Assembly (NCBI GenBank): GCA_025617745.1 | Contig: CM046853.1 | Coordinates: forward strand, 29,267,822 to 29,331,821 | Direction: 5' to 3' | DNA length: 64,000 nt | Origin: Heliocidaris erythrogramma | Taxonomy: Eukaryota > Echinodermata > Echinoidea > Camarodonta > Echinometridae | Shown here: piece after piece, positions 10,379 to 56,636 of the stretch | Layout of the letters: every line of letters starts with the position of its first letter | Position numbering within the stretch: the first letter of the stretch is position 1 | Position numbers and translations under genes: made by a program | The notes under the pieces: model-generated | Told to the model about the DNA's origin: nothing | Seen by the model: only the letters and a program-made list of their open reading frames with translations | The model's database searches: none

Positions 10379-10710
10379 GTGGGGCGGCACAGCAACAAAT
10401 TCCAGGCCAATTGTGCATTTTATGGTAAAAACGCCAAATTTGGCACACAGGTACATGAATATGTTATCAGCAAACATGGATATTGAGTCACCAAGAATTT
10501 GGGCCCTGGGGCCAGTTGTGCGCGTTCATTTAAATGGCTGCCACATGTTATATTTTCTTTATATTTTGTAAAAAATGATAATTTTTACAAAATTTAAGTA
10601 TAATAAATTGTGTTGCAGTCGTATTTAAGTTTTCAGGGCACAACATTCTGATAAAACATTTAGGTGCCCATTTTTTTTCCCAAATACGTAAAATATATAA
10701 TAAATTATTG

Positions 10711-11200
10711 TGAGTTGGAATAACTCCACGTTCCGGTCAGAATGCTCTGGCCGTCGTCAGGAGAATGAGAAGAGCGAATAAATCAGCAGAATTTATATAT
10801 GAAGCAGCAATTCAATAAATAAAATGGATGCAAACACATAACATAGAAAGAAATAGTAACAGTAACATCAAAGTACCTACATTGAAAGGATAAATAACAT
10901 CAAGGTACCTGCATTGAAAGGATAAGTGACATCAAACGAATCCTGTGTTGAAAAGAAAACATTGAAAGCAAGTGAACAATAGGACTAAGAAATCAATTAA
11001 CCGTCTGGATAAGCTGGAAACAAAAGGGGGGATTGGGACCGTAGGTAATCTGTGGAGATTCTGCTGATTTATTCGCTCTTCTCATTCTCCTGACGACGGC
11101 CAGAGCATTCTGACCGGAACGTGGAGTTATTCCAACTCACATGGTTGTACCGCAAACCTTTTTTCTGAATTACAACTTCACCATGCAAACCTTCAAATCC
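10711..11200. mobile_element. Penelope-like insertion with 83 bp inverted repeats and 15 bp target duplication
   Basis: The 15-mer TATAATAAATTATTG occurs at 10696-10710 and again at 11201-11215, flanking a 490 bp insert. Inside, 10710-10792 and 11058-11140 are perfect inverted repeats of 83 bp. The right repeat is followed by a 60 bp unpaired tail (11141-11200). A 15 bp duplication is too long for most DNA transposons and fits target-primed retrotransposition. Inverted terminal repeats plus a short tail are known for Penelope-like elements, whose terminal repeats commonly carry hammerhead ribozymes. No reverse transcriptase or GIY-YIG coding is present, so this would be a non-autonomous or internally deleted copy. 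The perfect repeats indicate a fairly recent insertion. Confidence 0.5.
11090..11121 (+). ncRNA. Hammerhead-ribozyme-like core in a terminal repeat
   Basis: CTGACGA (11090-11096) matches the hammerhead core CUGANGA. It is followed by a plausible stem II (CGG and CAGA pairing with TCTG and CCG, loop GCAT) and then GGAACGTG. The usual core reads GAAAC-GUH, so one core position and the cleavage-site base differ from consensus. The same sequence occurs on the minus strand in the left repeat. Activity is doubtful; the resemblance matters mainly because Penelope-like elements carry such motifs. Confidence 0.25.
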
Positions 11201-13151: not shown

Positions 13152-14812
13152 CAGGGTTGGAAAAAAGTTTGGAATATTTTTTTGGCGATGAGTATGTCTG
13201 ATTTTAAATGCTAGTTTCTACTATATTGTGATGAATAATTCATCCAAATCGGATTAACTGTGTTGAATGAAGTCTACTGTTCCATCTTGTACCAAAGATT
13301 ACGTAATATTGTTAAACATGTTACAATGGCTGACCAATGAACCACATGTTGTCAGTTTTGCTCTATTTGTGGTTGAACATCTTGTTATACATTTCTCTAC
13401 TTCACGTGGAATTTTGAAAAAGCTACGTGCAGTTTGTAGTCATTACCTTGTGCAAACGAAAGTTGATAACATGGTGCGTCAATTTAGCGACCACATGTAC
13501 AACAGGGTCATTACCCTGCGCAATGGCGGTTGGAAGCAAAGGGACATCGCTCTTGCATTAGGTATGACACAGGGGGCAGTGTCAAAAATTATACAGAGGC
13601 ATCGAGAGACTGGGACACCCACTCCTAGACCAAGGTCAGGTAGGCCTCGGATTACAACAGCAAGGGAAGACCGATCCCTCTTCAGACTTTGCCGCAATGG
13701 ACGCACGAAGTCTGCAAGTCATTTGAGAGAGGAGTGGATGAGGTTCATAAACATCCCTGTTACCAGGAAACTTGTGAACAATAGACTGTTAAGTGCTGGT
13801 CTTTTTGCTAGACGTCCAGTAAGAAAACCGATACTACTGCAAAGACACCGCACTGCACGCCTGCGTTGGGCACAGCGGTATCGTCATCTTCAGATTGCTC
13901 ACTGGGAATATGTGATCTTCAGCGATGAGTCTCGCTTTCTCTTGCATAGGGTAGATGGTCGAATAAGAGTGCGCAGACTGACTGGGCAACAACTCCTTGA
14001 GGATTGTGTCCTACCTAGAGTACAAGGAGGTGGTGGTGGGGTCACCATCTGGGGCGCTTTTCACAGCGGAGCAAAATGCGATCTTTACATGCTCGAGGGC
14101 CATATGAACCAGGAGCAGTACATACATGTCTTGCAAACGGTAATGCTCCCATTCGCTAGAAGGGACTTCCGAGCGAACTTTGTCTTCCAAGACGACAACG
14201 CTCCCGCACACAGAGCGCGACGGGTGACCGAATTCCTTGATAACGAGAACGTGGATCACATGGACTGGCCAGCTTTAAGTCCTGACATGAACCCGATAGA
14301 ACATTTGTGGGCAGATTTGTCTCGCCGATTAGGAGAGATGGTCAACCAACCAACAACTATAGCTGAACTCAGAGCGGCAATTGTAGCTTGCTGGCAAGAT
14401 ATCCCCCAGAACACCCTGAGGACCCTTGTTGCAGGAATGCCACGCCGTGTACGTGCTCTTCAGTTGGCTAGAGGAGGTCACACGAAATACTGATGTATAT
14501 TTTCATAAAGAGGGATGTTTATCCGATGCAAGAATGAGACTTTTGAGGACTTCGGTATAGCAATTAAACTGTATCTGATTATTTAACTTTTTCGTTAGAC
14601 ATTTGCAAAAACAGCAAATATACGCTTCCGAATTCCAAGTGGACCTCTGCACTGTGTGATAAGCCTGATTTTTAATGTTGTGCTTTTAAAGTTAAAAAGG
14701 GACACATATCTTTTATTTGAACCTCAAAGAAGAACTTAAAATGACGAGGGATATGTTTAAGACAAGAAATAATTCTTGGAATAAAAATATTCCAAACTTT
14801 TTTCCAACCCTG
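13152..14812 (+). mobile_element. Complete Tc1/mariner transposon
   Basis: Perfect 30 bp terminal inverted repeats start CAGGGTTGGAAAAAAGTTTG (13152) and end in the complement at 14812. TA dinucleotides lie at 13150-13151 and 14813-14814, the expected target duplication. At 1,661 bp it is a normal size for a Tc1 element. It carries a single uninterrupted transposase gene on the plus strand. Identical ends, an open gene and clean target sites suggest recent movement. It sits inside the right arm of an older inverted repeat, which gives an independent empty-site reference. Confidence 0.93.
13471..14493 (+). CDS. Tc1 family DD34E transposase
   Basis: The enzyme binds the element's terminal repeats and catalyses cut-and-paste transposition into TA sites in the nucleus. 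From the ATG at 13471 the protein is 340 residues, the usual Tc1 length. The frame is open upstream to an ATG at 13267, but those 68 extra residues lack transposase similarity and probably represent 5' leader. A helix-turn-helix region at about residues 10-45 (WKQRDIALALGMTQGAVSKI) is followed by an AT-hook-like GRPR (57-60). The catalytic domain has Asp152 in VIFSDESRF, Asp242 in FQDDNAPAH and Glu277 in SPDMNPIEHLW, with exactly 34 residues between the last two (DD34E). A Gly-rich stretch GGGGG lies at 186-190, as in other family members. No frameshift or stop interrupts it, so it may encode a functional enzyme. Confidence 0.95.
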   Translation: MVRQFSDHMYNRVITLRNGGWKQRDIALALGMTQGAVSKIIQRHRETGTPTPRPRSGRPRITTAREDRSLFRLCRNGRTKSASHLREEWMRFINIPVTRKLVNNRLLSAGLFARRPVRKPILLQRHRTARLRWAQRYRHLQIAHWEYVIFSDESRFLLHRVDGRIRVRRLTGQQLLEDCVLPRVQGGGGGVTIWGAFHSGAKCDLYMLEGHMNQEQYIHVLQTVMLPFARRDFRANFVFQDDNAPAHRARRVTEFLDNENVDHMDWPALSPDMNPIEHLWADLSRRLGEMVNQPTTIAELRAAIVACWQDIPQNTLRTLVAGMPRRVRALQLARGGHTKY

Positions 14813-24109: not shown

Positions 24110-24930
24110 CCTTGGTCACAAATACCATTAAGAACTCTACGAAGGCCGTACGAACGATTTTCAGACAATTTCGTAAGATCTTCTCAAGAAGGCCGTACAA
24201 AACTAGCGTTTCGTAGACCGTTCGTAGACCGTTCGTAAGTTCGCAGCCTGGTCGATGGTCTTGTCCAAGTATTTTTCAGCGTCCTACGAAGCCCCCACTT
24301 CGTAAGGCGGCCGTACGAACGTCGCAAGAACAACGTAAAAACCACGCTTCTAGAAGCCTTAAATTCTTACAATGATCGTAAGAACGCCTTACGAACGGAG
24401 ATTCGTATGGCGCTCTTACGAACGACTCTTGTCGTTTGTAAGGCATTCGTAAGATGCTCGTAAGGCGCGGGTACACAGCTGCAGTTGTAGTCTCTTTGGC
24501 ACTACTGTCATCTTGAAAGTATCAAATTTTCAACAGGCACAGAATTTTCGACAGTACACGGCAGCGCCTTTTTGCAACCCGACAAAATATACAAAAAATC
24601 GTAAGATGTTCTTACGAATGCCTTGAGAGTGCCGTGAGTTGCACGTACGACCATCTTGCGACAACAAAAATCGTAAGATGGCCGTAAGTCTGACGAAAGA
24701 ATTACTCAAGGCATTCTTACGAAAAACTCTAGGGACATTGTATAACCGAAAATCACTTCGTTTCTCAAGTAGGTCTTAAGTTTTTCTTGTGAATTAAACG
24801 GCTTTCGTACGAACTTCGTAAGAAGGCCGTAAAAATCTATGCCCCATCTACGAATCTCTACGAACTCCGGAATTCGTACGAGCAGTGAGATTCGTACGAA
24901 CGCATCGTTCGTACGAACCTTTGTGACCGT
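24110..24930. mobile_element. TTCGTACGAA-rich element with GGTCACAAA ends
   Basis: Ends read CCTTGGTCACAAA (24110) and, on the other strand, CGGTCACAAAGG (24918-24929). The ~820 bp body is saturated with short palindromic words: CGTACGAA, CTTCGTAAG, GGCCGTACG, TTACGAACG recur dozens of times. The sequence is CpG-rich against an AT-rich background. No coding was recognised. Its right half (from 24493) is included in the large tandem duplication that follows. The superfamily is undetermined. Confidence 0.55.
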
Positions 24931-25469
24931 AACTTAACATATGCCAAACGGGCGACTGCCAACAGGCAACTGAGATGAGCAAAGAATTAGTGAGTACTAC
25001 ATACTGTATATATATATATATCATAAGAGCTTCAAACATCGTATCTGATATCGGTAAAGTGGGCTAGAGGCCTCGCACGAAATATGACTATATCGTCAAA
25101 CAACGACATAATTCAAACTTTTGGAATCAATGGAATGAAAAGAAAGTATAAAAAGAGAACAGAGGAATGGGTGCTACAACAACAATTTGTCATGCCTGTA
25201 CTTATATATATCTAAAATAGATGTAAAAACTTCCAGATCGCCATTAGGCGTATTAGCCAGGGAAATCACTGTTTAACAAGCATAATATGTATCAACAGAC
25301 TCCGCGAACAGTTGCACTACACTTCTTTGTGATAATTAAGGTTTCTTACGACCTTGCGATGCGTTAGTAAACCTTTTCGCTTATTGCGAGATGAAAAAAA
25401 AACAACAAACAAACAACTGACCGTGCTCGAGGAATCCTCCCTCTCGAACACACCTACTATTTTTAGTTC

Positions 25470-25665
25470 TGAACAATAGGCCTACGTATGTAATATTTAA
25501 TACAAAACGTGCTCTCTAAGGTATTGTGTCTGAACTGAACAATAGCCCTACATATATATTAATTAATATAAAACGTGCACTCTAAAATATTGTGTCAGGA
25601 ATGAACAATAGGCCAACGTATGCATGATTTAATACAAAACGTGCACTCTAAGGTATTGCGTCTGT
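25470..25665. repeat. Short tandem motif, three degenerate units
   Basis: CTGAACAATAG.CCTACGTATG.AATATTTAATACAAAACGTGC.CTCTAAGGTATTGTGTC occurs three times in a row with about a 77 bp period, each copy diverged. The same array is present in the duplicated copy at about 27418-27613. Confidence 0.7.
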
Positions 25666-26084
25666 CAAGCGGTGATCTTTGGAAACGGATACTCTTTCTC
25701 ATCCTATGACAGGCATCGGTGTTGCATGCAGGTGTCATCAGGGTGGGGCCTAAGACCCTCATTGTGGATTTCCTTGGGGTTTTTTTTTTTTATTTTTTTT
25801 TTTTACATTATTCTCATAATCATCAGCATATTCAGGAGGTGCCATTTATCTTCTAGACATCATGTGTTAGTGTTCATTCTAATGCATATACCTGATAACG
25901 GTATATTTTTTACAAATCGCAGTTTGTTCAAAATAAGTTTTACGTTGCATGAGCAAGATCCCCCTGCAAGGTATTTTTTTTTTAGAAGGGATCCAAACAA
26001 CAACCAAAATAATTCTTTTTCGTGAAAAGACATAAAATCGTCTCTCAAGGCTAGATGAGACGGTTAAATTGTTAACAATTAAAA

Positions 26085-26259
26085 CAGTGGCGGATTTAGG
26101 GGGACACTTCCGGCCAGTGTCCCCCACCCTTTGGAAAGAAAAGTGCACATTGTGCCCCCCCCCCCTTGTTAGAAGTGATAACATTTTTTTAATTATTGCT
26201 TGTCAGAAAATTTCTGAATTCTTTTGAAGACCTTGTACAAAACCCCGGATCTACCCCTG
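26085..26259. mobile_element. Short hAT-like MITE (CAGTGGCGG ends), copy in unit 1
   Basis: Begins CAGTGGCGGATTTAGGGG and ends CCCCGGATCTACCCCTG, an imperfect inverted pair. Flanks AATTAAAA and GATTAAAG agree at six of eight positions, compatible with an old 8 bp duplication. It contains GGGGGACACT...AGTGTCCCCC near the left end and the recurring TTGCTTGTCAGAAAATTTCTG word. The duplicated copy lies at 28030-28199. Confidence 0.5.
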
Positions 26260-28029
26260 GATTAAAGAGCACTCAGAGGAAACAAATCATTTTATATGGA
26301 TGCCCGCACTGAACTTTACTTCCCGACGGCCCAAATGAGGGAGAAATATAAACAAGTGTACAGTACAGATATTTAAATTTGGAATATTTCATTACAGAAG
26401 TAATAACGTAAGATACAAAGCACAGTATATTTTGCACTACTCTTTGGCACTACTGTCATCTTGAAAGTATCAAATTTTCAACAGGCACAGAATTTTCGAC
26501 AGTACACGGCAGCGCCTTTTTGCAACCCGACAAAATATACAAAAATTCGTAAGATGTTCTTACGAATGACTTGAGAGTGCCGTGAGTTGCACGTACGACC
26601 ATCTTGCGACAACAAAAATCGTAAGATGGCCGTAAGTCTGACGAAAGAATTACTCAAGGCATTCTTACGAAAAACTCTAGGGACATTGTATAACCGAAAA
26701 TCACTTCGTTTCTCCAGTAGGTCTTAAGTTTTTCTTGTGAATTAAGCGGCTTTCGTACGAACTTCGTAAGAAGGCCGTAAAAATCTATGCCCCATCTACG
26801 AATCTCTACGAACTCCGGAATTCGTACGAGCAGTGAGATTCGTACGAACGCATCGTTCGTACGAACCTTTTTGACCGTAACTTAACATATGCCAAACGGG
26901 CGACTGCCAACAGGCAACTGAGATGAGCAAAGAATTAGTGAATACTACATACTGTATATATATATATATCATAAGAGCTTCAAACATCGTATCTGATATC
27001 GGTAAAGTGGGCTAGAGGCCTCGCACGAAATATGACTATATCGTCAAACAACGACATAATTCAAACTTTTGGAATCAATGGAATGAAAAGAAAGTATAAA
27101 AAGAGAACAGAGGAATGGGTGCTACAACAACAATTTGTCATGCCTGTACTTATATATATCTAAAATAGATGTAAAAACTTCCAGATCGCCATTAGGCGTA
27201 TTAGCCAGGGAAATCACTGTTTAACAAGCATAATATGTATCAACAGACTCCGCGAACAGTTGCACTACACTTCTTTGTGATAATTAAGGTTTCTTACGAC
27301 CTTGCGATGCGTTAGTAAACCTTTTCGCTTATTGCGAGATGAAAAAAAAACAACAAACAAACAACTGACCGTGCTCGAGGAATCCTCCCTCTCGAACACA
27401 CCTACTATTTTTAGTTCTGAACAATAGGCCTACGTATGTAATATTTAATACAAAACGTGCTCTCTAAGGTATTGTGTCTGAACTGAACAATAGCCCTACA
27501 TATATATTAATTAATATAAAACGTGCACTCTAAAATATTGTGTCAGGAATGAACAATAGGCCAACGTATGCATGATTTAATACAAAACGTGCACTCTAAG
27601 GTATTGCGTCTGTCAAGCGGTGATCTTTGGAAACGGATACTCTTTCTCATCCTATGACAGGCATCGGTGTTGCATGCAGGTGTCATCAGGGTGGGGCCTA
27701 AGACCCTCATTGTGGATTTCCTTGGGGTTTTTTTTTTATTTTTTTTTTTTACATTATTCTCATAATCATCAGCATATTCAGGAGGTGCCATTTATCTTCT
27801 AGACATCATGTGTTAGTGTTCATTCTAATGCATATACCTGATAACGGTATATTTTTTACAAATCGCAGTTTGTTCAAAATAAGTTTTACGTTGCATGAGC
27901 AAGATCCCCCTGCAAGGTATTTTTTTTTAGAAGGGATCCAAACAACACCCAAAATAATTCTTTTTCGTGAAAAGACATAAAATCGTCTCTCAAGGCTAGA
28001 TGAGACGGCTAAATTGTTAACAATTAAAA

Positions 28030-28199
28030 CAGTGGCGGATTTAGGGGGACACTTCCGGCCAGTGTCCCCCACCCTTTGGAAAGAAAAGTGCACATTGTGC
28101 CCCCTTGTTAGAAGTGATAACATTTTTTTTATTATTGCTTGTCAGAAAATTTCTGAATTCTTTTGAAGACCTTGTACAAACCCCCCGGATCTACCCCTG
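28030..28199. mobile_element. Short hAT-like MITE, copy in unit 2
   Basis: Second copy of the CAGTGGCGG-ended element, carried along by the 1.95 kb tandem duplication, with a shorter C run inside. It is not an independent insertion. Confidence 0.5.
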
Positions 28200-28469
28200 G
28201 ATTAAAGAGCACGCAGAGGAAACAAATCATTTTATATGGATGCCCGCACTGAACTTTACTTCCCGACGGCCCAAATGAGGGAGAAATATAAACAAGTGTA
28301 CAGTACAGATATTTAAATTTGGAATATTTCATTACAGAAGTAATAACGTAAGATACAAAGCACAATATATTTTGCCCATTGGCCCAATTTAACGTTGTAA
28401 CACCTGCCTTTTACTGTACAATGATAGATAAATACAATTATGCATGACTTATTAAATATCAACTGGGTG

Positions 28470-44052: not shown

Positions 44053-45497
44053 AACTTGAACAGGAACCATAGGTTTACCTCTGCACGACAAAGGTTTTAA
44101 AAAAATACATAAACCAGCACTGAATACGGGGTGGGGAGGGAGGGTTGCGGGTTGAAAATTACTCATTTTGTCTCATTAGTGATTCCAGTTGAGGCTCCTA
44201 ATCGTCGACTAATATATTTGTATTCATATTTGTCTCTTATTCAACAATGGGGGCATAACTAGATGCCGAGAGTCTTCGGTGATTTGAGATGGTGCACATA
44301 TATGTGTTTCCGTGTGTGTGGGCGTGTGTATCTTGGGTGCGTGTATGGGTGTGTGTGAGTGCGTATATCTGATGACAGGGGTCATGCTTTACTACAAAGC
44401 GCTCACATAACATCAGTCTTTATATATAGATAAATATTTATATATACAAAAAATGGATGAAAGTGTTGAGTTTCACACAAGGAATCATTATCAAGCTCAG
44501 CATTTACATTTTGATGGATAATGGTCATTAGTAATTATTTTTACTACGCTTTTGTTCATCGTAGCAGAAAGCTAGAGGAGTTCTTTTTTATTATGGATAT
44601 ACTTCTTTTATGGAGCTTCTTTTCATCAAGTGTTAAAGACTGGGATTTCCTTTAATTCTTTTGATTTCCTCAATGAAATATCATATATGTGAAAAGCAAA
44701 ATGAAGAACAGCAATTATTTTGAAAAATTTAGATATTACCAAACAATGTTTTGGAACGGTATCTGCAAGTGTATTTTCTCTTTCTGGTCATGCATTTACG
44801 GTTCAAAATCTAAAGTTGAACCAAGCCAATTTTCGTTTGAATTGAACTTGAAATTTTTACTCCTGTACAAATGCTACTGTACATTTCTGTTTTTGTCCCC
44901 CCCCCCCCCCGACCGTTCACATCCCCCTTCTTTGTTTCCTTCCTTTTTCTTCTTTCTTTTTATTTATTCCAAACAATGGTCTGTGAAATACAAGCCACGC
45001 CTACTTAATAGACTCAACTACTCTTGTTTTCTGTTTCTGTTTCGGTTCTTAATGTTCATGTGTACTGATTTAAAATATAGTAAAAGATATACATGTTTGT
45101 GGAAAATCAATAAACTTGGAGACATTGAAACTTAATTACCAAGTGTACCACTTAATATATTAAGTTGAATTTGCACTTTAAGATATGGTGGTAGATTATT
45201 CACTTTACTTACGTTATAAGGACAACAAGAAAGAAAAGTAGCAATGAGCAAATAAAATTATCAGAAGCTTGATATCTTAGCCGGGAGCTATCCGATGCTC
45301 TAGAAGTAGTGATACTAAAATTTCTCTCAAGAATGAAGAGACTTGATCTGTGGACAAATCGCTAAGTTCACGTCAGCATGAGATTGGGATATTTCTGTGT
45401 TATTGTGTAGATAATGTGTATAAGATGTAAGGTATAGATTTTTTTTTTTGTAATGTTGCACAGGTCAGGCGCGTTATGGGGGGGGGGGGGTGTAGAG

Positions 45498-45765
45498 CCC
45501 ACAAATGTAAAAATCAACCACAAATGTAAAAATAACGACAAATGTAAAAACATTGCACCCGCAAATGTCAAAATAACCACAAATGTCATAACATGTCAAC
45601 CACAAATGTAAAAATAACCACAAATGTAATAAAAATCGCCCACAAATGTAAAAATCCGTTTAACCACAAATGTAAAAACAGTTCGCCTATAAATGTAAAA
45701 ATTTCCATTTTTACCACAAATGTCATAACATGTCGACCGCAAATGTAAAAACTCATTGCTTGCAT
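45498..45765. repeat. Outer minisatellite, left arm
   Basis: About twelve copies of (A)ACCACAAATGTAAAAA(T/C), unit roughly 16-23 bp because of variable spacers. Two further copies lie at about 45877-45918, separated by non-repeat sequence. Open minus-strand frames over it read as FTFVV-type repeats and are artefacts. Confidence 0.92.
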
Positions 45766-46371
45766 AATGTACCCATGTACGATATGTTATTATGAAATGT
45801 ATGTGTTTGTGCGCGTGCATGCGTGTGTGAGAGGTTTTCCTGACCATTAAAATCCCTAAAATATTGACACATCCTTTACCACAAATGTCAAAACATGTCA
45901 ACCGCAAAAGTAAAAATTTATTAAACTTCTCTTTTACTAGTAACAGCAACTAATACGATTCTAGTGAGGCAATTAATGTTGTATCCCCCGAAAGTAGCCA
46001 GTCCATCAGAATCAGACGTCTAGAGCGAACTCGAAAATATTTTAAAATAAAATTTACTGCCCGCTATTTAACACGCAAACTCCCATTGACTTTCGAAACC
46101 GCGCAATAAACAATTTATTGGCCCGTAATTATGTTAGCTTGGCAAAGCCAGGAAATAAATTGTAAAAACTGCATTGCTCAGATGTCTGATATGGTTAATA
46201 ATAATACTATTTCACGCAATTTTTAATGAGGAAATATTTAATTGTTGAGAAATGGCTGAAACCTGCATGTTATCGTTTCAATCTATAGTGATAATCAAAT
46301 ATAACACAAATGTAGTGGGCCTACACTATACGACGCACGCTGTTGTTTTGATTAAAAATAAAGGGTTTATT

Positions 46372-46568
46372 GCCACTTGGTCTACAGCCAGTTGGTCTAA
46401 TAGCCAATTGGTCTAACATCATTTGGTCTAATATTAGTTGGTCCAGTAACCAATTGGCCTAATCATCATTTCGTCCAATTACCATTTGGTCTAAGTGTCA
46501 TTTCGTATAATTACCATTTGGTCTATAGTCAATTCGTCTAATAGCCATTTGGTCTATTTGGCAATTTT
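46372..46568. repeat. Inner minisatellite, left arm
   Basis: About twelve ~16 bp units of consensus GCCAATTGGTCTAATA, many containing the palindrome CCAATTGG or CATTTGGTC. Orientation is opposite to the array at 48598-49215. Confidence 0.92.
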
Positions 46569-47456
46569 GGAACCGGGCCGGGGGTGATGGGGCTGCAACC
46601 CCTTCACTTTATGAGTAGACACGTTTCATATAATTTTGTTTAATGATTATGCACAATATATATATATATTTTTTAAACGAGATCACATTTTAAAGATATA
46701 TATACATTGTAATAATGTTTGGCCGCTCGCTTCGCTCGCTCGCAAAATGTTGAAATGTGTAGTTGATAGGCGTCAGTCCCCACTTCCAAAAACGTTCCAT
46801 TTCCCTGCATTGTGGTACATGTGGTTATATTGATGATAATAATGAATAGAAACAGAATGGCACAATGAGAGAGATGATGGAATATTGAACATAAAGAGTA
46901 CTATAAGGAAAGACGGAGTGAAGATGAATCGATGAATAACAATACAATAGGGAAGATTGAAAGTTAAGGGATGGAAAGATAAAGACATAGGCCTAACGTA
47001 AAGATAGAGAAAGAGAGAGAGAGAGAAATAGTAGAAGAATAAAGAAAACCATGGCGGAAGATGGAAGAGAAGATTATAAGCCCCACCCCCGCTCCATAAA
47101 CAAAAACAAGAAAGAAGAAAATAACATAACGAAATTAGAGATGAAAAGCAGAAAAAAAAAGATAAACAGAAAGAAAAATGCAAAATAGGCAAAATGATAG
47201 AAAGATAAACCAAGGAATAAAGAGAGAAAAACATAGATAGAGAAAGAGAAAAATGATAAAAGAAATAATGTAAAGATCAACATATGGAAAGATGGAAGAG
47301 GTGATAGAAGGAATTAAAAAATAACACAACTAAAGGAAATATGGAAAAATGAAAGGATAAAAGCAAAGAATAACATAACGAAAGATAGAGAAATGATAGA
47401 AGGGTAAAGCTTTATATATATAGAGAGAGAGGGAGAGAGAGAGAGAGAGAGAGAGA

Positions 47457-47979
47457 GCGAAAGATAGCGAAAGAAATGAAGGGATAAAAAACAATATAAC
47501 AAAAGCAAAGTGCATTAAAACAATAATTGAAAATTCACTAAACATATTAATTGATTAATAGATTAATCAATTTATTCACTAGATAATCAATTAAGCACAA
47601 GCGCTTTTAAATTTATTTCTTCAGGTGGAAGAAATAAATTGAAAGCGCTTGTGGAAATCAACCTGTGGATATATCTGCAGTGTCATTATTCTCTGAGTGA
47701 ACTTTATTTTAATTCTATTTCATCTATACGTTCTCCCATTTAAAATCTCTATGTAATATAGCTGATAGACTGATTTATGATGCCTCGCCTAAGACATGTT
47801 TGATCCATGCAGACTATATAATAGATGTATATATATATAGCGAAAGATAGCGACAGAAATGAAGGGATAAAAAACAATATAACGAAAGCAAAAGCATTAA
47901 AACAATAATTGAAAATTCACTAAACATATTAATTGATTAGTAGATTAATCAATTTATTCACTAGATAATCAATGAAGCA
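47457..47979. repeat. Direct repeat pair, ~140 bp, 382 bp apart
   Basis: GCGAAAGATAGCGAAAGAAATG...CACTAGATAATCAATTAAGCAC (47457-47597) recurs at 47839-47979 with about 95% identity. A 54 bp hairpin and unique sequence separate the copies. Confidence 0.85.
47598..47651. repeat. Long-stem hairpin
   Basis: CAAGCGCTTTTAAATTTATT.. pairs with ..AATAAATTGAAAGCGCTTG with about 24 bp arms, few mismatches and a 5 nt loop (AGGTG). Size is small for a MITE and a little short for a pre-miRNA. Confidence 0.7.
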
Positions 47980-48597
47980 CATGTAATTAATTAGCTATCT
48001 TAGCACAAAAGTCAATCAGGCACCATGGTCCGGATGTCTGGAGCGCCCTACCACAATGGCTAAAATTTTCCTCAATTTACTCTTTTAAAACATCGATAAA
48101 AAAAAATATATTTTTTTTTGCACTTTTTTATTTCTCCAATTTTCATAAGTACAAAGTAAAGTATATTCAGAATCATAATAGCATAATATACATAATCTAC
48201 GTAATGAACATGACATAATTACTTTTGACAAACAGACAAAACCGGACCGTTTAACAAAATAAAATAAATATAATAACAAGAATAGTGGGCGATGCTATGC
48301 TAAGGAGAGTGAAATGATGCAGGAGACCGACATCGTAAGCATAAGCTTGAAATGATGACGGCCTCGGGATAGGAAATGAAAGAAGAAAATAAAAGAAAGA
48401 GAAGACAAAGAAGGATGAATATGAATTGAAGGGTAATGTGCAGGTGGCCATGCAATATGTGAAATGAATGATTGTACAAAGTCTCTGCTTAATTTTAAAT
48501 TCAATTTAATGCCTCAATAAATGGTTAATTATAGAACAATTTTTTCTCTAACAATATTAAATACTAACTTTAATTAGTGTATTGATTAAGAAGGTGT

Positions 48598-49215
48598 TTT
48601 TTAGACCAAATGGTAAATGGACGAAATGATGATTAGACCAATTGGTTATTAGACCAACTGATATTAGATGGAATGATGTTAGACCGATTGGGTATTAGAC
48701 CAACTGGCTGTAGACCAATTGGCAATAAACCTTTATAACTATGACGGGCTAAAGTTTGTCTGTAGTATTGGACCAATGGATATTAGACGAACTGAAAATT
48801 GTACCAAACGATTAGTAAAAAAGGTAATCAGACGAAGTGATGATTAGACGATGTGGGTGATAGATCAACTGGGTTTAGGCAAAATGGCTATTTGACGAAA
48901 TTAGACCATTTGGTTATTAGACCAATTGTTTTTAGCCGAAATAGATTGGACCAAGTGAACATTAGACGAACTGATTATTAGACCAAGTGATGTTTAGACT
49001 AAATGTGTTTAGACCAAATGGGTATTAAACCAAATAGTTTTTAGACGAACTGGCTATAGACGAAGTGGTGATTAGACGAAGTGATTAAACTGATTATTAG
49101 ACCAAATGACTATTAGACGAAATGTAGATTAGACGAACTGGTGATGGACGAATAGACCGAATGATATTGGACCATTTGGTTTTTAGACCAATTGGCATTA
49201 GACCAAGTGGCAATT
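48598..49215. repeat. Inner minisatellite, right arm
   Basis: About 38 units of consensus TAGACCAATTGGTNAT, 15-17 bp each, with frequent TAGACGAANTG variants. One break (about 48720-48765) contains non-repeat sequence. Threefold longer than the corresponding left array. Confidence 0.92.
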
Positions 49216-49239
49216 TACCATAATAACTTACAACGGTGC

Positions 49240-49512
49240 ATTATTTGCAAGCAATGAGTTTTTACATTATCGATGTGTTATGACATTTGTGGTAAAAATG
49301 GAAATTGTTACATTTAGAGGCAAAATGCTTTTACATTTGTGGTTAAACAGATTTTTACATTTGTGAGCGATTTTTATTACATTTGTGGTTATTTTTACAC
49401 ATGAGGTTGACATGTTATGACATTTGTGGTTATTTTGACATTTGCGGGTGCAATGTGTTTACATTTGTGGTAATTTTTACATTTGTGGTTGATTTTTACA
49501 TTTGTGGGCTCT
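49240..49512. repeat. Outer minisatellite, right arm
   Basis: Inverted counterpart of 45498-45765, reading TTTTTACATTTGTGGT. Unit order and spacer words match the left arm. Confidence 0.92.
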
Positions 49513-49515
49513 ACA

Positions 49516-50395
49516 GGGGGCAGAGGGCGATTGCTCCCATATGGTTTTCTATATGTCTTCCCTGAAGAAAATATAGACAACCTTATATTCTGCTTTTCAG
49601 AAATTTGGGAAACATGTAATGCTTTCTGTATGTGAAATGTGAGAACCCCCTTTTATTTCTTAATTATTAGAGATATGTATATCCCCCTTAAAAAACCCTC
49701 TGGCGTTGCCCATATTAGGCAAACAATTGCACTCGCATTATTTTGTATTAAACTATAAAGCAACATTATTTATAACATGCGCCTTCCTTTGGAAGTTAAC
49801 CTGAATACATTTAACACAACATGCATTGACTTGATACAAAATTAAATTAGATAGTAACTAAAACCTCAGTAATTTTATAAGGGAAAACATATTTCGTCGG
49901 AATTGACGAAATTCGCATGTCCCGCCAGGGTATTGAAGATTAAATGTAACGAGACAATTTTCACTCATTCGGCCAAAGTTCTATATGCAAGACGTGTTTT
50001 AGAATATCACCAGTGTGAGATTTTCTTCGTTTCTTTTAGTGATAAGGGAACGGAGAAGATAAATCTTCAAAATGACGTTTGTAGCCTAGTAGCTGTTCTA
50101 TATTTTCTTACGAATGTAATATGAAAACAAAACAAACCTACCCAAAATATTTTTCCTAGGTAATTTAATAAAAGCTGGTATTGAGTAAGGAACAAAAAGC
50201 ATCCACCAGCAAGCATTCAATCACTTAGTTAGGTTCATGATAAAAAAAAGAAGATAAATGTGACGGCACTGGAAGGAAAACGCTGATATGAATCACTTGA
50301 AATGTCATTAAATTAAGGGCGAATAGATGTAAACATTAATCGGTTCTTATATACCTGCGCTTTCATTCTGCATGAAAATGGTTACGGAGGCGTCT
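49516..50395. other. No feature recognised
   Basis: AT-rich; a 73-codon plus frame (49903-50124) has no recognisable family and no splice-like borders that I can defend. Confidence 0.4.
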
Positions 50396-55207: not shown

Positions 55208-55426
55208 GGCCTGTTTACTAAGTGTATTTAAATTTATGCATGTTTCTCTCCAGAATCCTTAGCTACCAACTATTTAGTGCACATGATATGCATAATGGCA
55301 TCTCTATGGATGGAATCCATTTTGCATATATTAGATGTTGCTATGTCGGGCAAGCCTCTGGCAAGCTTTTTAGTCGTCAAGAGAAACTTTTGTTCAAGAA
55401 GTATGCATAAAATTAGTAAACAGGTC
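55208..55426. mobile_element. TA-flanked MITE inside the LINE
   Basis: Ends GGCCTGTTTACTAA and TTAGTAAACAGGTC are inverted repeats (13 of 14). TA lies on both sides (55206-55207, 55427-55428). Removing the element and one TA joins LINE residues ASFALHRI directly to GRIRSF, so the host sequence confirms the borders. The 219 bp interior has a 62-codon plus frame without recognisable similarity. Confidence 0.85.
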
Positions 55427-56110
55427 TATTCTATGAAGAGCAAATGATGCAAATCTAGTTTAAACTTATTATCAAAAATTACACCTAAATTTCTACAAGT
55501 TTCAGTTGCTTGAACGATTATGCCATCCATGTTTACTGAAGATATGGGAATCGTAGATCTATAACGAGAAGTAATGTGAAGAAATTCCGTCTTGCTACTA
55601 TTTAGCTTAAGACCATTTTCCCATGACCACTCTTTGATAGTTTTCATGCACTCTGATATTTTCAAAAATACATCATCTATATCAGATTGTTTAAATGCTA
55701 TATATAACTGAGTATCGTCGGCATAAAACATCTTGTGTACACCGTGTCTATCAATAAGGGATTCTAATGGAGACGTGTACATAGTAAACAAAAGGGGTCC
55801 CATTACAGATCCTTGCGGAACTCCTTGGGATAGTTGATGTGGTGTGGATGTATCTTTACCAATAGCTACAGTATGAGTTCGCCCTGTTAAGTACGATTTA
55901 ATCCAGTCATGTGCTTTACCACATATACCAAATCTTCGTGACGCCCGTTTTAACATGGTATCATGCCTGATAGTATCAAATGCAGATGAAAAATCTAAGA
56001 GGACTATAACAACTTCTTCGCCTTTGTCTAGGGAAGTTAAAATATCATTAGTTACACGTAATAAAGCAGTTTCAACACTATGAAATGACCTATATCCTGA
56101 CTGTGCAATG
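55427..56110 (-). pseudogene. LINE reverse transcriptase, catalytic palm
   Basis: In order: SGYRSFHSVETALLRV, VVIVLLDFSSAFDTI (motif A with Asp), RFGICGKAHDWIKSYL, GVPQGSVMGPLLF (motif B), KMFYADDTQLYIAF (motif C, YADD) and LKLNSSKTEFL, CRNLGVIFD. Catalytic aspartates are intact. The order and words (YADDTQLY, SAFDTI, LGVIFD) point to the CR1/L2 group. Upstream frame is shifted relative to the N-terminal part. Confidence 0.9.
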
Positions 56111-56636
56111 CCGCCAACTTCTCTAGAATTTTAGCAAAAAACTTCAGGTTAGCAATAGGCCGATAGTTCTTTAAGTCTTCAGGATCACTCTTTATACCTT
56201 TGAGTTTGGGGGAAATACTAGCACGCTTAAACTGGTCAGGAAAACACCCACTCTTAAAAGACTCGTTAACAATAAATGTAATAATAGGAACTAATTCATT
56301 ACGAAACATCTTTACAAATCGAGTGGGAATAGGGTCCAAATTACATGTTGCAGAGGAAGACTCATTTATAACTTTTAACACTTCATTTTTAGTAACAGAC
56401 CTAAAACTTTCAAATGAGAAAGTTTTCTGTTCTTCATCTATAAAGCGTTATGTGTCACTGTCTATTTTCAACTGTAAATCTTGCAAGATGTTGTCAACCT
56501 TCTCTGTGAAATACTGAATAAAGCGTTCACTAAGGGGTATCGAACAGTCTCTATTACTGGGAAGAACATTAGACGAATGAGGCCGCGTCATTTGATCAAC
56601 TTTCCTGAATAATTCGCGGGAGCTGCAGTCTTTCAA
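56111..56636 (-). pseudogene. LINE reverse transcriptase, N-terminal segment and linker
   Basis: Linker residues LSERFIQYFTEKVDNIL precede a TAA stop (about 56446) and then the frame continues FRSVTKNEVLKVINESSS, NLDPIPTRF, LKNYRPIANLKFFAKILEKL. These are motifs 0-2 of non-LTR RT. The frame ends where a small deletion removes the usual HL....QSGYR connection. Confidence 0.85.

Follow-up and report, generated by a model that had tools for sequence, protein, structure and literature searches.

A probable non-autonomous foldback transposon family of Heliocidaris erythrogramma with two minisatellite classes in its arms and 5-bp target duplications in G-runs

The stretch of Heliocidaris erythrogramma DNA analysed here, hereafter the window (64,000 nucleotides; C1:29267822-29331821, on contig CM046853.1 of assembly GCA_025617745.1), holds at 45491-49515 a 4,025-bp element whose ends are exact inverted repeats, TGTAGAG...CTCTACA, made up of TGTAGAGCCCACAAATGTAAAAATC and its reverse complement and identical over their first 43 bases. 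The outer arms (45491-45736 and 49270-49515) are 94% complementary over 246 nt, and BLAST aligns the outer inverted repeat over 297 columns at 90.9% (E ~1e-115); the inner arms are 91% complementary over 134 nt (Table 1). On each side an outer minisatellite with units of 18-27 bp, mostly 18 and 23, is followed further inward by an inner minisatellite of TAGACC-type units. An earlier note on this DNA, made from the letters alone, had described such inverted ends with two stacked arrays per side and outer arrays matching unit by unit; both descriptions hold, the first ten unit lengths counted inward (19, 18, 23, 18, 23, 18, 22, 24, 23 and 27 bp) being equal in the two arms. All 16 occurrences of the motif CCACAAATGTNA in the window fall within the element, where 0.07 are expected. 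Of the inner arrays the note had counted about 12 units against 38: the 12 on the left and the clear inequality stand, and the right array has 35 or 34 units, according to which of two definitions is used, in two blocks with a 45-bp gap between them. The arms are imperfect mirrors, since a spacer of ~570 bp in the left arm is absent from the right; the difference that the note had put down to unequal expansion is partly structural, between a spaced and a direct arm.

The element has relatives throughout the genome (1.06 Gb in 26 contigs were searched). The first 20 bases of the tip occur exactly 484 times (244 + 240; none for a reversed-pattern control) and 966 times with at most two mismatches (494 + 472; four for the reversed control), which disposes of the possibility, raised in the note, of a single copy. 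A 110-base tip query returned 1,082 candidate places, 40 of which were scored. Paired ends, spanning 2.3-7.8 kb, were found in 16 of 20 tip loci fetched as 10-kb stretches (L-numbers below denote family loci fetched from elsewhere in the genome); no partner end was found within the fetched 10 kb of L013, L017 and L024, and L010 is either nested or cut. Facing tip pairs among the matches listed (the first 100 places each) range from 734 bp (C5:29385733-29386466) to 23.7 kb (C2:12141141-12164820). Scanning viral contigs for patterns produced no match, and neither did a phage BLAST; both results are uninformative here.

Thirty copies were examined for a target duplication, namely 17 full copies (the window copy and 16 others), three longer ones and ten pairs whose ends alone were fetched; lengths of 1-11 were tried, and 1-15 in the ends-only set. 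An exact 5-bp duplication flanks 19 of the 30: 15 of the 17 full copies (the exceptions are L014 and L016), two of the three longer copies (L031 and L033, not L032) and two of the ten ends-only pairs. These last ten are an unfair sample, consisting of seven pairs with at least one flank other than four G/C bases, two that had failed a four-base test and one informative positive. In seven copies with duplications of mixed bases (L011, L012, L022, L023, L026, L031 and L046) five is the sole matching length, the sequences being GCCCC and GGGGT twice each, GGGCC, GGGGC and AGGGT; the CGGGC of L054 matches at five and also at one base. The window copy stands in a homopolymer, and the duplication length cannot be fixed from that copy alone. 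All 34 arms listed have TGTAGAG as their first bases, immediately next to the duplication.

The sites themselves favour G/C runs. Four G/C bases lie directly outside 280 of the 484 exact tips, whereas such 4-mers make up 2.5% of the background in the window and, across 27 fetched loci, 3.0%, and GGGG or CCCC was counted by eye outside 79 of 100 tips among the matches listed. Twenty of the 22 facing pairs among the matches listed, counted by eye, fit a 5-bp duplication by the four-base test, C2:53441331 and C4:21807252 being the failures; this test is weaker than the five-base one, as L032 (C4:5822123) passes at four and fails at five. Orientation relative to the G-run appeared unbiased by eye: once copies are turned so that the spaced arm is on the left, five sites read G and four C (L016 and L022 excluded). 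At L016:7228-9677 the two flanks of the copy form an inverted repeat of 67 bp (98.5%), the left one bearing a G-run and the right one a C-run, and by eye a tip-like sequence lies just outside the copy, which may occupy the middle of a palindromic repeat.

Empty sites were also recovered. L026, itself within an interspersed repeat, carries GGGGC on both flanks. A query made of the two flanks with a single GGGGC between them matches C5:25778322-25778570 along its full 249 bases (96%), and at least 38 further places match across the junction in the repeat part only (40 scored of 2,079 candidates, one of the 40 being the L026 flank itself). All six fetched copies of the host repeat have a single GGGGC and no gap, so that insertion with duplication is documented to the base. 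The note had called for such a check, and its proposal of a mobile foldback family is borne out by the tips, the target duplications and the empty sites. Family copies in or beside interspersed repeats with GGCGGATCCAGG were seen at L026:279-400 and L034:1-41.

The internal layout recurs as well. Fifteen of the 17 full copies are polar, with one direct and one spaced arm; the exceptions are L012, in which an arm is rearranged, and L027, which has no inner array. The direct arm (B) runs from the outer array through a ~45-bp junction into the inner array, of which L016 has the first unit alone. The spaced arm (A) runs from the outer array through a different junction into the spacer, beyond which some copies have an inner array; for the spaced arm of L011 the alignment covers only the start of the spacer. 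A 28-base core of the direct junction occurs exactly 129 times in the genome (69 + 60; control 0). Because family copies have this junction in common, the fixed order in which the two minisatellites stand belongs to the family and is no accident of the window: the stacking that the note had remarked on as an oddity is real and is family architecture.

Identity to the window copy falls inward, from a median of 93.8% in the outer array (24 copies, cover at least 60%) through 91.3% (21 copies) and 88.3% (5 copies) in the spacer to the middle, two pieces of which have 78.8% (5 copies) and 84.0% (7 copies); part of the drop is selection, since the tips served to find the copies. Across copies, runs in the inner arrays range from 4 to 66 units (runs of at least 3 counted). 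Middles vary: some copies match that of the window, and other copies of 5-6 kb hold broken reverse transcriptase pieces. The two halves of a duplication in the window's middle both match one same stretch in L020, L021, L022, L026, L030, L032 and L033. At L024:929-2251 the arm A spacer has expanded into a tandem array in which a ~210-bp piece is present about five times, giving that arm a third class of tandem repeat.

In a tree of 33 arms with the junction included, all A arms fall into one group. In a tree of the outer array only, the arm label needs 7 changes, against a mean of 11.0 after shuffling, with 5 of 500 shuffles as low (L012_A was left out of both trees); lacking a clean A/B split, this tree is not used as proof of a single arm duplication. 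Descent of both arms from one inversion-duplicated ancestor, as the note had it, is likely from the unit-by-unit match, and the outer-array tree fails to show it.

No gene was recognised in the window copy, as the note had stated: 27 stop-to-stop open reading frames (ORFs) of at least 55 aa overlap it, and a Pfam scan of the longest gave no match. The ORF lists cover 20 full copies and L010, at thresholds of 55 to 150 aa, and the partial spans L013, L017, L024, L029, L030 and L034+L035; 39 frames in total, from family copies and nested elements, were scanned against Pfam. The eight ORFs scanned from L011, L012, L019 and L027 yielded no more than RVT_1 (E 0.009) and a RhoGAP match below threshold. 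A further twelve full copies, together with L010, contain 32 ORFs of at least 100 aa, 20 of which were scanned, with RVT_1 in two (L015 and L028; E ~5e-6, under the cut-off) and nothing in 18. Ten frames from nested stretches yielded RVT_1 in L024, L029, L031, L032 and L034, accompanied by GIY-YIG in L029 and L034 (Penelope-like) and by endonuclease domains in L031 and L032. The scan found nothing in L030:2460-2981 or in two L017 frames, leaving a DIRS-like reading of the latter, made by eye, unsupported; the label Gypsy-like for frames in L034/L035 is likewise by eye only. A frame at L032:6660-7388 contains the motif GDVDPNPGP, which we take to resemble 2A peptides.

The sole transposase domain among the 39 frames is a Tc1-type HTH_Tnp_Tc3_2 in L030, a 13.7-kb span, where it lies among other nested material and is taken as a nested passenger. 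The 39 frames, a small part of the family, include no transposase that could be the family's own, no Mutator-like element (MULE) domain and no integrase; a longer relative with its own transposase between the same tips, which the note had suggested looking for, did not appear among them. The scanned sample is small against 484 exact tips, so an autonomous member may well exist.

The features of the element are collected in Table 1. Elsewhere the window carries a Tc1-type transposase frame (13267-14493), a frame for a reverse transcriptase of long interspersed nuclear element (LINE) type (55426-56130), a ~1.95 kb tandem duplication at 24492-28375 with 98.9% identity and a triple 66-bp repeat in each half, and, at 10709-11141, a perfect 84-nt inverted repeat around 265 nt that resembles a miniature inverted-repeat transposable element.

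Table 1. Parts of the foldback element and its flanks, in window coordinates
Feature	Position	Strand	Remark
Left target-site duplication GGGGG	45486..45490	.	final five of the 13-G run 45478-45490
Left tip TGTAGAGCCCACAAATGTAAAAATC	45491..45515	+	first 20 bases: 484 exact occurrences genome-wide
Outer minisatellite, arm A, 12 units of CCACAAATGTAAAAAT type	45499..45751	+	unit 1 belongs to the tip
Arm A spacer	45790..46357	+	first part recurs in most fetched copies; outer-type dimer at 45878-45917
Inner minisatellite, arm A, 12 units of TAGACCAAATGG type	46361..46556	-	
Middle, no recognised gene	46557..48600	.	first kb common to some copies, ~77-84%
Duplication within the middle	47456..47981	+	47456-47599 / 47839-47981, 95.8%, around 47600-47838
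LINE-like fragment in the middle	near 48000		judged by eye
Inner minisatellite, arm B, middle-side block	48601..48722	+	48601-48734 pairs with 46361-46494, 91%
Inner minisatellite, arm B, outer block	48768..49217	+	
Arm B inner/outer array junction	49218..49262	-	recognisable in 15 of 17 copies
Outer minisatellite, arm B	49259..49507	-	mirrors arm A unit by unit
Right tip (inverted)	49491..49515	-	
Right target-site duplication GGGGG	49516..49520	.	

The family has defined ends, dispersed tips, a 5-bp duplication in G/C runs, empty sites and polar arms, and we consider it very probable that the structure in the window is a single copy from a family of non-autonomous foldback DNA transposons. 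Several observations weigh against this interpretation. In 11 of the 30 copies no exact duplication of 5 bp is present: among the ends-only pairs, four of ten are one base off; the pair L036/L037 reads GGGTACATA/GGGTACACG, with 7 of 9 positions matching; L032 matches at length 4 alone; L014 agrees in 4 positions out of 5; the two flanks of L016 differ, one having G and the other C; and three pairs, L042/L043, L050/L051 and L052/L053, fail to match at five. Eleven of the 19 exact duplications lie within pure G or C runs, where their length is uninformative. Host sequence is common to L009, L015, L025, L027 and L028, and flanks are common to L018/L019 and to L020/L021, so that there are fewer insertion sites than copies. 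The copies were picked by tip similarity, which biases the conservation of tip and outer array upward. The Tc1-type frame of L030 sits between two family tips. Finally, because the autonomous partner was not found, mobilisation in trans is something that we infer, and the role suggested below for the outer array is argued by analogy.

Comparisons with published elements draw on excerpts of the papers cited. Long inverted arms of short tandem repeats around a variable middle, together with dispersed copies, target duplications and empty sites, place the family in the foldback (FB-like) group by structure and by mobility. TU foldback elements of sea urchins have 15-bp units, a duplication of about 8 bp and a variable middle. 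The note had named TU as precedent, and the likeness holds for the long inverted short-repeat arms and the variable middle; the present family differs in its 18-27 bp units, its second array class and its 5-bp G-run duplication. Nearer to TU in unit length is a second foldback-like element, L030:6148-9833 (C2:16369147-16372832), with arms of ~15-bp GCGACAATTGCTCCT-type units that are 96% complementary over 325 nt; it lies within a span of the G-run family and is flanked, by eye, by ~115-bp direct repeats. TU elements are named in an account of Tetris / DAIBAM of Drosophila virilis (PMC4079207), which, like the present family, are non-autonomous, with multi-domain arms, a variable middle and internal tandem repeats whose sequence is also found in the end domain; their repeats are of ~220 bp and their duplications of 8-10 bp. 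Tm1 of root-knot nematodes, assigned to Mutator, also has composite arms, with a repeat motif of ~14 bp and different terminal motifs at its two ends; its duplications are of 8-10 bp, mostly 9, without target consensus, and some members encode a putative transposase (PMC3169594). Galileo, of the P superfamily, has internally repetitive arms of unequal length, with ~210-bp repeats proposed as extra transposase-binding sites, and 7-bp duplications (PMC3573991). MuTAnT (218 copies) is foldback-like and inserts into simple repeats, its target being (TA)n, its duplication 9 bp and its transposase known and of Mutator type (PMC4486113). Rehavkus resembles the family in a minisatellite beside the terminal inverted repeat (TIR) and in its animal hosts, and differs in its 9-bp duplication, its PHD-finger transposase and a minisatellite that stands only before the 3' TIR (PMC6446971). 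The family is thus a foldback by structure, and its 5-bp duplication, set beside the 8-11 bp of Mutator and 9 bp of Rehavkus (PMC6446971) and the 7 bp of Galileo (PMC3573991), argues against the usual Mutator and P assignments. Among the titles listed by searches of the open-licence literature of PubMed Central, we found none that describes a foldback targeting G-runs.

Some rival explanations concern the structure. Large inverted repeats are prone to assembly error, and the note had allowed for an assembly inversion, but this explains neither arms that differ at ~6% of sites nor a junction that recurs 129 times. With hundreds of dispersed tips, differing flanks that carry target duplications and empty sites, an assembly artefact is refuted for the family, though less firmly for the window copy by itself, and we give it or a simple inverted duplication a negligible chance. 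The double-array arm could be merely apparent if two unrelated foldbacks were nested one in the other, and the inner arms of the window do form a separate inverted repeat. Two independent nested elements are disfavoured by the outer-to-inner junction common across copies, whose core is found exactly 129 times, and we regard such nesting as very unlikely; a version of it in which a single ancient nesting founded the family may apply.

Other explanations concern the enzyme. Mutator is said to hold most foldbacks (PMC4079207, PMC3169594, PMC4486113), and a MULE-type foldback like Tm1, Tetris or MuTAnT might be present if the duplication length had been misread through the G-runs; one pair, L036/L037, with 7 of 9 positions matching, speaks in its favour. 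The seven mixed-base copies match at five alone, against the 8-11 bp described for MULEs (PMC6446971), and make a Mutator origin unlikely. Within the preferred reading of a non-autonomous family moved in trans, an integrase-like transposase of Ginger/TDD, IS481EU or long terminal repeat (LTR) retrotransposon type is a possible, though not a probable, source. The TGTAG...CTACA ends fit the TGTNR of Ginger and Gypsy (PMC2836005), IS481EU of H. meleagridis has TGT...ACA ends, and duplications of 4 or 5 bp for Ginger2 and 3-6 bp for LTR elements (PMC10045372) accommodate the 5 bp found here. Ginger1 and Ginger2, which share the short duplication, have an integrase gene of their own, with minisatellite arms going unmentioned in the excerpt, and their targets, the 4-bp CCGG or CCGT/ACGG for Ginger1 and a preferred RTATAY for Ginger2, are not G-runs (PMC2836005). 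No integrase was present among the Pfam-scanned frames of the family, and TGTNR is a weak signature, met by chance once in 128. Transib prefers GC-rich targets and has ends that begin with CAC, whereas all 34 arms here begin TGTAGAG at the duplication. Transib makes 5-bp duplications (PMC8355894), the length found here; a Transib/RAG-type transposase in trans we hold to be highly improbable.

For a non-autonomous foldback family, movement would proceed as follows. A DDE-type transposase made elsewhere would bind the tip motif, pair the arms, cut at the ends and insert the element at a G-run, with a stagger of five bases. Since the tip includes the first outer unit, each arm of an intact copy carries about twelve repeats of the tip motif in its outer array, and by analogy with Galileo the simplest use of the outer units would be as extra transposase-binding sites. 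The inner arrays and the exchangeable middles would be apparent passengers, altered through slippage and unequal exchange and by capturing pieces of LINEs. We suggest tentatively, and put at somewhat short of an even chance, that the enzyme is a transposase outside Mutator and P, the two superfamilies to which the papers cited assign foldbacks, and possibly integrase-like or undescribed; it would recognise a minisatellite built of its own binding sites and insert with a 5-bp stagger into G-runs, perhaps by way of an unusual guanine-tract structure.

Looking ahead, foldbacks with repeat-filled arms are a recognised group in which the moving enzyme is often unidentified, and the exact ends, 5-bp duplication, narrow G-run target, empty sites and hundreds of tips of the present family make its missing transposase searchable. 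Two minisatellite classes held in constant order within the arms of a transposon could, moreover, seed satellite arrays, as has been proposed for Tetris (PMC4079207).

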